Part shown: positions 2,517-7,653 of the stretch, piece by piece | How positions within the stretch are numbered: the stretch's first letter is position 1 | Layout of the letters: each line of letters opens with the position of its first letter | Virus record (IMG/VR): IMGVR_UViG_3300046167_000059 | Span: 1-42,444 of that record | Source: a virus | Length of the DNA: 42,444 bases | Reading direction: 5' to 3' (one strand) | The notes under the pieces: generated by a model | Database searches by the model: none | The model's input: the letters and a program-made list of their open reading frames with translations, nothing else | Told to the model about the DNA's origin: nothing | Translations under genes and position numbers: made by a program

Positions 2517-3808
2517 TTATATTATCCAACTTAAATCAGTCTCAGGGAGTTCCCTTCCCCAGACACTATCATTACCTGTGAACACTACATCTGTTATACA
2601 CAAGTACCTAAAAGCATCGCTGGCGTGTGATGTCCAGTCATGCACTGGTCGTTGTGACCATATCTTTTTCTTGTCATCATAACTACTTCTATATTGTAGT
2701 AATGCTTCCAATCCTTTCTTGGTAGTGCTTTCATCAAACCAGCACTTGTTTAAATAAGTTCTAGTTGTATCAATACCATCCATAACTTTTAACTTTGGTG
2801 CTACTTGAAAGTCTATTCCTAGGTCAAATGCTAGGTCTCGTCTTGACTTACCAGTAGAAAATTCTCTAACTACTATATCGTGCGGTGCTATGTGTGCACC
2901 ATAATGATAACCCTTCCTGTTTAGTACCTCTATATAGTGAGGCAATCCTTCGTTAGAGTTTTCATAATAATCTATAACTGTGTACTGCTTTACCAACAAA
3001 TTGTACAAACCATATACTGGTTGCGTCTGAGACTCCAAGGTCCCATGCTGTTACTACTTGTTTAGACGGGTCATAAGGGACTTTCCCCACTCGGTCTTCT
3101 TCATAAGCAGTTTCAATCTCTTTAGCATAATACGCACCTCTAAGTGCAGCAGACCAAGAACACTCGTATTCTTGTTCAAATTCAGTCTCTGCCATATCCT
3201 GTTTCGCAAGCTCGAGTTCCTCATCATCTAATATCCCTGTTTCACTCGCCTTGTATAAGAATCTAGCCCATCCCTTCTTCTCTGGGGCAGAGTGGTATAA
3301 ATCATAAAATTCGTTTTTCCCTTTAGGTGTGCCAATAAATATGGCATAACCTTTCCTATCTGAGAGTGCCGGTCTTATAACCTCTGAGAACATCTTAGGG
3401 TTCATCTGGGCATACTCATCTAATACTACACCGTCAAGATAAATTCCACGGAGAGTGTCATAGTTATCAGCTCCGTACAGTTGTATCCTAGCTCCCATGA
3501 AGTCAGCTCTTAGTTCCGCTTCATTAAACTTAACCTCAGGGAATACAGCACATAGTCTTTTTAATTCATCCCAAGCAACTGTCTTAGCCTGCTTAAATAG
3601 TGGTGCTATGTACGCATATCTAGGTTGTCTCTTACCAGCTTGTATATCTTCTACAGAACTTTTGATTAACTGGTTTATAGCAAATACAGTCTTACCAAAC
3701 CTTCTGTGACATACAACTACATTAAATCTATCTAGATTAGTATGTAAGTGTTTCTGTAAATCCCTAGGTGTATAAGGGAATTACTATAGATTTCCTCTCC
3801 TCTTGCAT
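2517..3808 (-). CDS. terL: Terminase large subunit, broken by two one-base frameshifts
   Basis: The ATPase/nuclease motor that packages DNA into the prohead; reconstructed length about 430 residues. ATG at 3808 gives MQEERKSIVIP, then the frame must shift at CCC (3778-3776) to read YTPRDLQKHLHTNL. The ATPase domain follows with the Walker A-type CHRRFGKT and Walker B GVVLDEYAQM. The nuclease domain starts at TAWDLGVSDATS, and a second shift is needed at AAA (2991-2989) to pass from FVQFVGK to QYTVIDYYENSN. The C-terminal acidic residue lies in HDWTSHASDAFRYLC. Both shifts need one base removed, as expected if CC became CCC and AA became AAA. It starts 5 bases after terS. The protein is unmistakable; whether the breaks exist in the living phage is doubtful. 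Confidence 0.88.
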
Positions 3809-6361: not shown

Positions 6362-6404
6362 TTTGGGCAATATCGAGGGCTATTGTCCAAACTCTTTATA
6401 ACTA
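6362..6404 (+). repeat. Early-gene hairpin element, copy 5 (diverged)
   Basis: TTTGGGCAATA (6362-6372) pairs with TATTGTCCAAA (6381-6391). The sequence differs from copies 2-4 at many stem positions yet pairing is kept (11 pairs, one G-U), which is evidence for selection on RNA structure. ACTCTTTATAACTAAAGGAG follows, then the ATG at 6418. Confidence 0.75.
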
Positions 6405-6417
6405 AAGGAGAAACAAA

Positions 6418-6636
6418 ATGGAAAGATGTACTAATGAAGTAGAATACTTTGTTGATACTGGCATTGATTATAAGCCAGTATTAACTAAGTGTGGTTATAC
6501 AAATCCTTATGGTAGATTAGCAATTTGTGATGATTGCGAAAACAATAAGGAAAAGATGAGAAGTATTAGAAACCATGAGGCAAATGTCAAGGCAGATAAT
6601 GATTGGCTAACCTCTGCGGGTTGGGGAGAAATATAA
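6418..6636 (+). CDS. Small cysteine-containing early protein (72 residues)
   Basis: Begins MERCTNEVEYFVDTGIDYKP after AAAGGAG. Cysteines at residues 4, 24, 37 and 40 (ERC, TKCGY, ICDDC) could bind one zinc ion, as in small zinc-finger proteins. The remainder is polar. The stop TAA (6634-6636) overlaps the ATG of the next gene, so the two are translationally coupled. Function unknown. Confidence 0.7.
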   Translation: MERCTNEVEYFVDTGIDYKPVLTKCGYTNPYGRLAICDDCENNKEKMRSIRNHEANVKADNDWLTSAGWGEI

Positions 6637-6809
6637 TGAGAAAGAATAAAAGAACTTGGCTAAGACCTAGCCAAAAAGAGATGATTGCTAAAGTATTAGT
6701 TTGGGTTGGTTTCTTCGGGATAATATTTAATAGTGCTGTATTGATATGGCAAGTACAAGTATTTATCCAGTTGAACAATCAATTCAACTTCTTTTCTAAA
6801 TTAATATAG
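6636..6809 (+). CDS. Small membrane protein (57 residues)
   Basis: Starts at ATG 6636 in a TAATG overlap with the previous gene, with GGGGAG 7 bases upstream; the longer frame from 6603 lies wholly inside the upstream gene. The product has a basic N-terminus (MRKNKRTWLRPSQKEMIAK) and one clear transmembrane segment, VLVWVGFFGIIFNSAVLIWQ (residues 20-39). The positive-inside rule puts the N-terminus in the cytoplasm. It might be an early membrane protein that alters the host envelope. It is the last gene before the structured non-coding stretch. Confidence 0.65.
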   Translation: MRKNKRTWLRPSQKEMIAKVLVWVGFFGIIFNSAVLIWQVQVFIQLNNQFNFFSKLI

Positions 6810-7207
6810 GAATATCTCCGAGTCCTGAGTATGACTTACTAAACTGCTCACTTATTAAGCATGATTACCCAATCGCCATTACGAGGGTAGTTAGTGAAGT
6901 TTGCGATTAATGAACTAGCCATGCTTTCTTACAAGACCTGAGTAAGTCTAGGTGGAAGTCCTAAAAACTACGACTGGAATGTCCTGAGTATGACAAATGC
7001 AACAGCATGGTAAAAACTGCTCACTTGTTTATACTAAGCAGAAAAATTTAAAGGGATGAGGTTATAAAAGGCAGTACATAAGTATGCGAACCAAGTCAAG
7101 TTACATAACCGAAGTAAGTATAAATTAGTTGTTAGAAATATAGGCTATTGCTATTAACTCATGAGGGCGATAGTCTATACTCCTATTAACTAAGAAAAGG
7201 AAAAAAT
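6810..7207 (+). ncRNA. Candidate structured RNA, two tandem units
   Basis: About 400 bases without a plausible gene but full of complementary segments in the sense direction. Hairpins with the same 7-base loop start occur three times: AGTC[CTGAGTAT]GACT (6821-6836), AGAC[CTGAGTAA]GTCT (6934-6949), TGTC[CTGAGTAT]GACA (6980-6995); the stems change in a compensatory way while the loop is kept. Units 1 and 2 also share AAACTGCTCACTT (from 6841 and 7014), whose TGCTCA can pair with the loop TGAGTA as a pseudoknot. Long-range helices: GACTTACT/AGTAAGTC (6833-6840/6941-6948), AAGCATG/CATGCTT (6857-6863/6920-6926), AATCGC/GCGATT (6871-6876/6903-6908), TTTATACT/AGTATAAA (7028-7035/7117-7124), GGTTAT/ATAACC (7060-7065/7105-7110). 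I do not recognise the family. Confidence 0.6.
7140..7194 (+). repeat. Early-gene hairpin element, copy 6 (long stem)
   Basis: ATAGGCTATTGC (7140-7151) pairs with GCGATAGTCTAT (7167-7178): 12 pairs, two of them G-U, loop of 15. It is followed by ACTCCTATTAACTAAG (7179-7194) and AAAGG before the ATG at 7208. The stem is unrelated in sequence to copies 2-4 but the layout is the same. Confidence 0.65.
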
Positions 7208-7606
7208 ATGGGATTAGATATGTATGCGTGGAAAACTAAGGCGAAAGACATTGAAGATGGTCAAGAGCCTTTAGCCGATTGGAGAAAACACAACAGGCTT
7301 CATGGCTATATGGAAATGCTTTGGGAAAGTAAAGGCAAACCATTAGATACTGATGCACAAAATCCAATGGGTAGTAACTTTAATTGTATACCTTTAGAAC
7401 TTGATGAAGATGACTTGAAAAAGTTAAAGATAACCATCAAGTCTAACGACTTGCCCGATACTCAAGGCTTCTTCTTTGGTCATGATAGTTATGACTACGA
7501 CACAGAAGAAGTCAAAGAGCAGAGGGAGTATGACCTTGAGTTTGTTAAGAATGGACTCAAGGCAATTAAAGATGGGTACAAGGTTGTGTATTCTTCTTGG
7601 TGGTAA
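7208..7606 (+). CDS. Conserved phage protein starting MGLDMY
   Basis: A 132-residue protein. The start MGLDMYAWKTKAKD, the segment WRKHNRLHGYMEMLWESKG (about residues 26-44) and the very end YSSWW mark a family met in many phages and some bacteria, sometimes labelled phosphoglycerate kinase in databases; nothing here supports kinase activity. The conserved Trp/His/Asp residues may bind a ligand or metal. It is acidic, cytoplasmic and has no membrane segment. It has its own hairpin element and AAAGG ribosome site. Function unknown. Confidence 0.78.
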   Translation: MGLDMYAWKTKAKDIEDGQEPLADWRKHNRLHGYMEMLWESKGKPLDTDAQNPMGSNFNCIPLELDEDDLKKLKITIKSNDLPDTQGFFFGHDSYDYDTEEVKEQREYDLEFVKNGLKAIKDGYKVVYSSWW

Positions 7607-7610
7607 AAAC

Positions 7611-7653
7611 TTAGGGCATTCTTCGGAGTGTCCTAACTCTTTATAACTAAAGG
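7611..7653 (+). repeat. Early-gene hairpin element, copy 7 (UUCG loop)
   Basis: TTAGGGCATTC-TTCG-GAGTGTCCTAA (7611-7636). Compared with copy 3 the stem has changed on both sides (TTGGGGCA/TGCCTCAA to TTAGGGCA/TGTCCTAA) and still pairs, with the same C(UUCG)G loop. CTCTTTATAACTAAAGG follows, then the ATG at 7661. Confidence 0.78.

Follow-up and report, generated by a model that had tools for sequence, protein, structure and literature searches.

A short H-type pseudoknot RNA family placed behind stop codons in phages

The nearest described RNAs to the element reported here are the STAXI motif and the L17 downstream element (PMC2864571). The STAXI motif (RF01728; Weinberg et al. 2010, PMC2864571) is a small, often tandem pseudoknot found near SSB, antirestriction and other DNA-protein genes, and its 153-position model covers two to three repeats in which UUCG tetraloops are frequent (PMC2864571). 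The L17 downstream element (RF01708) is a structured RNA of bacterial 3′ UTRs that was called highly unusual by its finders (PMC2864571). The likeness of our unit to STAXI lies in the small, often tandem pseudoknot near SSB, antirestriction and other DNA-protein genes, but the present unit has no tetraloop, is mostly single and is tied to stop codons. At E ≤ 0.001 the STAXI model matched 0 of 19 carriers of the unit and nothing in the window, by which we mean the whole 42,444-nt stretch of viral DNA analysed (IMG/VR record IMGVR_UViG_3300046167_000059); this search had no positive control, two plasmids tried having carried no copy. The L17 downstream element is alike in being a structured RNA in a bacterial 3′ UTR, but it is bound to one ribosomal protein gene, whereas the present unit has no Rfam match.

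ToxI, the type III antitoxin RNA of ToxIN, consists of tandem H-type pseudoknots of ~35 nt and has also been borrowed by phages. Our copies are H-type pseudoknots of similar size but are mostly single and lie behind unrelated genes; a ToxN-family toxin (PF13958) was detected in 0 of 22 carriers, with control genomes equally silent. The frameshift and read-through pseudoknots of BWYV and MLV are likewise H-type, with a C in L1, an A-rich L3 and a short spacer to the ribosomal A site. The present unit resembles them in build and spacing but has no frame to shift or read into.

The earlier note on this DNA had proposed a structured RNA with repeated CUGAGUA hairpins and named no family with this loop. 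Consistent with this, the Rfam 15 covariance models gave no match in the window at their gathering thresholds, and at E ≤ 10 in the region 6500-7300 only osmY and NPPA-AS1_3 appeared, both at E ≥ 1 and neither covering the pseudoknots. In 13 other loci only tRNAs matched Rfam. The literature searched on phage pseudoknots yielded no description of this element, and searches with the motif strings returned unrelated papers only.

Architecture and covariation of the pseudoknot unit

The recurring unit is an H-type pseudoknot RNA of about 30 nt, formed by one hairpin and its tail: two crossing helices, each with compensatory changes. It is laid out as an upper helix S1 (NNNNC/GNNNN), loop L1 (C), helix S2 (UGAGYA/URCUCA), loop L2 (U) and a loop L3 with AAAC at its end. 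The closing C-G pair of S1, the L1 C, the L2 U and the AAAC make up its invariant part, although the search patterns prescribed L1 = C, AAAC and CTT, so that the conservation of L1 and AAAC is partly imposed by the search. The sequence of S1 is unconstrained, yet its arms are nearly always paired, and S2 covaries too. Among the covariance-model matches AAAC is nearly universal and the CUU tail variable; in the flank profile, G is rare in the 4 nt 3′ of CUU, and U is slightly enriched behind CUU. By analogy with small viral frameshift pseudoknots, the conserved L1 C and the A-rich L3 suggest that a triplex tightens the knot and makes it mechanically stiff.

The window contains two pseudoknot copies and one degenerate hairpin, all on the + strand. 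The three CTGAGTA hairpins and two downstream AAACTGCTCACTT strings reported earlier are all present, with CCTGAGTATGAC at 6824 and 6983, CCTGAGTAAGTC at 6937 and AAACTGCTCACTT at 6841 and 7014. Copy 1 (6820-6853; 37.3 bits, E = 8.8e-9) lies just downstream of a short ORF, and its S1 starts 10-11 nt after the TAG stop codon of that ORF (6807-6809, + strand). S1 pairs AGTC (6821-6824) with GACT (6833-6836), G6820-T6837 being a possible fifth, wobble pair, and S2 pairs TGAGTA (6826-6831) with TGCTCA (6845-6850). The loops are C6825 (L1), T6832 (L2) and 6837-6844 (L3, ending in AAAC), and the tail is CTT. Copy 2 (6979-7026) has S1 arms TGTC (6980-6983) and GACA (6992-6995) and S2 arms TGAGTA (6985-6990) and TGCTCA (7018-7023). 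Its L3 is enlarged by a 4-bp hairpin (ATGC 6997-7000 / GCAT 7005-7008) followed by AAAAAC, and because of this insert the covariance model matched it in two pieces; an enlarged L3 is also found in several relatives of the window phage. The degenerate copy 3 (6934-6949) is a hairpin, AGAC-C-TGAGTA-A-GTCT, without a good S2 partner: the best candidate, UACGAC at 6969-6974, makes 3 pairs, and the homologue in locus L040 has the S2 partner AAAACTACTTC with 5 of 6 pairs. The pattern CTGAGTAN-N{5,30}-CTGCTCACTT has two matches in the window, against none in 100 shuffles.

The earlier note had set its RNA reading against a conserved coding frame; no ORF of at least 60 aa lies on the + strand between 6810 and 7207. 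Of the computational checks it had suggested, energy folding was uninformative and covariation in homologues was positive. Nested minimum-energy folding gave z = +0.81 on the + strand and −0.66 on the − strand, no better than shuffles, since the actual fold is a small pseudoknot.

A search of IMG/VR with both S1 arms left free returned 85 stretches representing 64 distinct copies. The arms were complementary throughout these 64 (one requires a loop larger by 1 nt and one is truncated by a contig end), with the variants GTC/GAC, TTC/GAA, CTC/GAG, ATC/GAT, ACC/GGT, GAC/GTC and CAC/GTG. When S2 was freed three pairs at a time in separate searches, at least 5 of 6 S2 pairs formed in 54/55 and 102/103 of the copies among the matches listed, where the variants were TGAGCA/TGCTCA, TGAGTA/TACTCA, TGGGTA/TGCCCA, TAAGTA/TGCTTA, TGAACA/TGTTCA and TGATCA/TGATCA. 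A flexible finder recovered 252 matches versus 3 in Markov-shuffled loci. Across 116 distinct copies, 91.1% of the cells were paired and covariation reached 0.451, versus 0.161 in shuffled and at most 0.075 in slid versions; four of the five S1 pairs and four of the six S2 pairs had changed on both sides. These compensatory changes bear out the loop-to-tail pairing that had been read from the window alone.

Replacement of C-G by U.G is frequent in S2 (50/116 at one pair) and C.A is rare; therefore, the folded strand is the coding (sense) strand. A DNA-level site was rejected as the main reading, as the element contains U.G pairs and is always read in the sense of the gene before it.

Position behind stop codons and distribution among carriers

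The unit is typically found just behind stop codons. In 54% of 177 non-redundant copies, the stop codon of an ORF of at least 50 codons lies no more than 20 nt upstream, with a mode of 5-6 nt; the corresponding share was 1-8% when positions were shifted and 4.5% for the opposite strand. In the annotated isolates Labelle, ParMal1, Molivia, JNU_P7, NatCom_3357 and S-EIVl, the match begins about 6-7 nt after the end of the upstream CDS, and each of the seven S-EIVl copies follows a stop codon by 4-11 nt. We regard both the RNA family and its placement behind stop codons as virtually certain. For a minority of copies the nearest long ORF is 30-190 nt away. One copy in L078 follows a terminator, that is, it sits in a leader.

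The genes upstream are unrelated and include DUF932, class II RNR, Gp2.5-like SSB, Hsp20, DnaB and glucosyltransferase genes. Downstream, some loci have a tRNA 0-13 nt on, several tRNA 5′ ends being only 0-8 nt away, and some have a promoter-like sequence. An ordinary terminator comes next in L215 and L254, the ribosome-binding site and start of the next gene follow after 10-35 nt in other loci, and in the window another structured RNA comes next. UGA stops are depleted before the element (5/84, versus 76/399 for spaced ORFs in these loci; p = 0.002), a modest effect that could reflect junction type.

Virus records of 20-190 kb carry one to seven copies. Isolate carriers include the cyanophages S-SM2, S-RIM4, S-H35 and S-EIVl of Synechococcus and NMeng1 of Nostoc; Roseobacter phage SIO1 and its relatives, Celeribacter phage P12053L and Paracoccus phage ParMal1 among the phages of Proteobacteria; and Mycobacterium phage Labelle, Arthrobacter phage Molivia and Lactobacillus phage JNU_P7. 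Gut phages, one of them crAss-like, also carry it, and phiEcoM-GJ1 and Erwinia phage Berlingot have an element with a weak S1. Among bacteria, 22 of 195 Saccharibacteria genomes of the class carry the element at E ≤ 0.001. One deltaproteobacterial MAG also has it, and many bacterial copies may be mobile DNA. Two of seven pattern matches in bacterial contigs, in Terrilactibacillus and Billgrantia, were not upheld by the covariance model.

On the Saccharibacteria contigs the gene before the pseudoknot is often a small one whose product has the motif YNGWSNRETW, its stop codon lying 8-12 nt upstream of the knot (loci L263-L266, L271, L273, L274, L277 and L281), and several copies there have an extra conserved sequence, GCTATGCTGTACGGAA, downstream. 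Locus L254 has three pseudoknots in immediate tandem (2949-3044), with a stop codon on one side and an ordinary terminator on the other.

Most copies outside the window are single. Tandem aptamers, as the repeats had first been read, are thus not borne out, the copies elsewhere lying mostly alone, behind stop codons and beside neighbours without a common pathway. The suggested likeness to large phage ncRNAs does not hold for a unit of only about 30 nt. Judged by pathway and 5′-UTR position, a riboswitch is likewise unsupported, given the diverse neighbours and the stop-anchored position.

A second RNA module and other features of the window

Between copies 1 and 2 lies a second RNA module (6857-6926, + strand), composed of a closing helix and three interleaved helices: P0 AAGCATG/CATGCTT (closing), P1 TACCC/GGGTA, P2 AATCGC/GCGATT and P3 GTTAG/CTAGC. 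Further perfect complementary segments, among them AAGCATG/CATGCTT and AATCGC/GCGATT, are part of this module. Across ten sequences, 98.1% of the cells in P1-P2-P3 are paired and six pairs carry changes on both sides, and the closing helix is compensatory by eye (AAGCATG/CATGCTT, TAGTAAT/ATTACTA, CTAAA/TTTAG). The module recurs in L001, L004, L040, L077, L078, L080, L159, L304 and L305, so far only in the phage group of the window. The alternative helix GACTTACT/AGTAAGTC, on which a two-state switch had been proposed, exists in the window; the switch is unsupported because this helix is not conserved in relatives, L077 having GACTTAAT and L006, L021, L054 and L156 lacking the middle hairpin.

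A long imperfect hairpin precedes the next gene (7125-7193, + strand; arms 7125-7151 / 7167-7193) and is also found in L006, L019, L021, L054, L077, L156 and L159, which otherwise differ downstream. The non-coding modules form mosaics with junctions at pseudoknot copies (L001, L006, L019, L054, L078, L080, L084, L156 and L159). Because the junctions of modules between knots fall at these copies, the sequences suggest that recombination may occur at pseudoknot repeats in the phage group of the window. Similar hairpins are present at 6364-6403 and 7612-7645 (TTTGGGCAA..TTGTCCAAA and TTAGGGCA..TGTCCTAA), each followed by an identical CTCTTTATAACTAAAGGA before a gene start, a repeated leader module. 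The window phage encodes portal, scaffold, primase/helicase, DNA polymerase, Cas4-type exonuclease and RNR proteins. At the BLASTP threshold used, ten of the ORFs have a match in Lentibacter phage ICBM1.

Possible roles of the pseudoknot

Our preferred reading, a tentative one, is that of a post-stop roadblock or insulator that would act with host machinery, namely the terminating ribosome and/or exonucleases. A knot 5-6 nt behind the stop codon would sit where the mRNA enters the terminating ribosome. Frameshift pseudoknots have the same spacing, a distance that lies within the ribosomal footprint when the stop codon occupies the A site. A stiff knot would bound the mRNA directly behind the ORF and stop ribosomes from running on into a tRNA, a structured RNA or a leader that comes next; it could also block 3′→5′ exonucleases after downstream processing, either by RNase P at an adjoining tRNA or by an endonuclease in the A/U-rich, G-poor spacer. 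Shielding of the 3′ end and containment of ribosomes would be two outputs of this roadblock, inseparable with the present data. A message bounded in this way is consistent with what adjoins the knots, be it a tRNA, another RNA, a promoter or a leader.

The roadblock would rely on universal host machinery. No protein common to six carriers from distant phages was found by BLASTP (two of the carriers were compared only in part), and the partner is therefore probably universal: the ribosome, RNases, polymerase or a common metabolite. Against the roadblock, intergenic elements in compact phage genomes tend to sit near stop codons anyway, the minority of distant copies and the L078 leader copy do not follow the rule, and exonuclease protection needs no such short distance from the stop. 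The broader proposal is more doubtful: a widespread, so far undescribed class of termination-coupled pseudoknots in phages of many bacterial phyla, which would use the ribosome itself, and no phage protein, to influence termination, recycling or what becomes of the mRNA end.

Aptamers such as preQ1-I typically combine invariant unpaired residues with neighbouring stems that covary freely. The same pattern here, together with a broad host range that suggests a universal partner, could mean that the invariant S1/S2 junction (C-G, L1 C, L2 U, AAAC) forms a pocket for a small ligand or a host RNA-binding protein, making the element a 3′-UTR sensor or anchor. We consider this unlikely: the neighbouring genes have no common pathway, the element is tied to the stop codon and not to a start or terminator, and the search patterns contribute to the AAAC and L1 conservation.

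The position between gene and gene, gene and tRNA, or gene and structured RNA, at times directly before a tRNA 5′ end, might instead point to an RNA-processing signal that separates cistrons and tRNAs, the element being cleaved by or guiding an endoribonuclease, or cleaving itself. There is no obvious cleavage site, because no residues are conserved 5′ of S1 and the CUU tail is not kept in multi-copy genomes; with no protein common to the carriers, this reading seems rather improbable.

A transcription element, whether a pseudoknot attenuator or terminator or a put-like antiterminator modifying RNA polymerase, would suit the terminator-like position, the promoter-like sequences directly behind some copies and the slight U enrichment after CUU. 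It is a poor candidate, as there is no consistent U-tract, tRNAs or ribosome-binding sites within 0-30 nt leave no room for a promoter, and ordinary terminators come after the element in L254 and L215. An intrinsic terminator was rejected on the absence of a U-tract from the flank profile and the tRNA directly behind some copies.

Finally, stimulation of stop-codon read-through, as by the pseudoknot that follows the gag stop codon of murine leukaemia virus, shares the geometry of stop, short spacer and H-type pseudoknot but is very hard to credit and was rejected along with frameshifting, since no open frame continues past the stop (the three frames extend by a median of 7, 5 and 7 codons, n = 95) and UGA, the leakiest stop, is avoided before the element.

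The unit is a cis-acting pseudoknot RNA family absent from Rfam 15 and from the literature searched; its small size and pseudoknotted fold are probably why it was overlooked until now. Few structured elements occur in bacterial 3′ UTRs, and one fixed to the stop codon is, as far as could be found, undescribed; its placement looks unprecedented. As carriers infect laboratory hosts such as Mycobacterium smegmatis and Arthrobacter, the role of the element is directly testable. A strongly covarying RNA of ~30 nt is common to unrelated phages of cyanobacteria, Proteobacteria, Actinobacteria and Firmicutes, to gut phages and to some Saccharibacteria.
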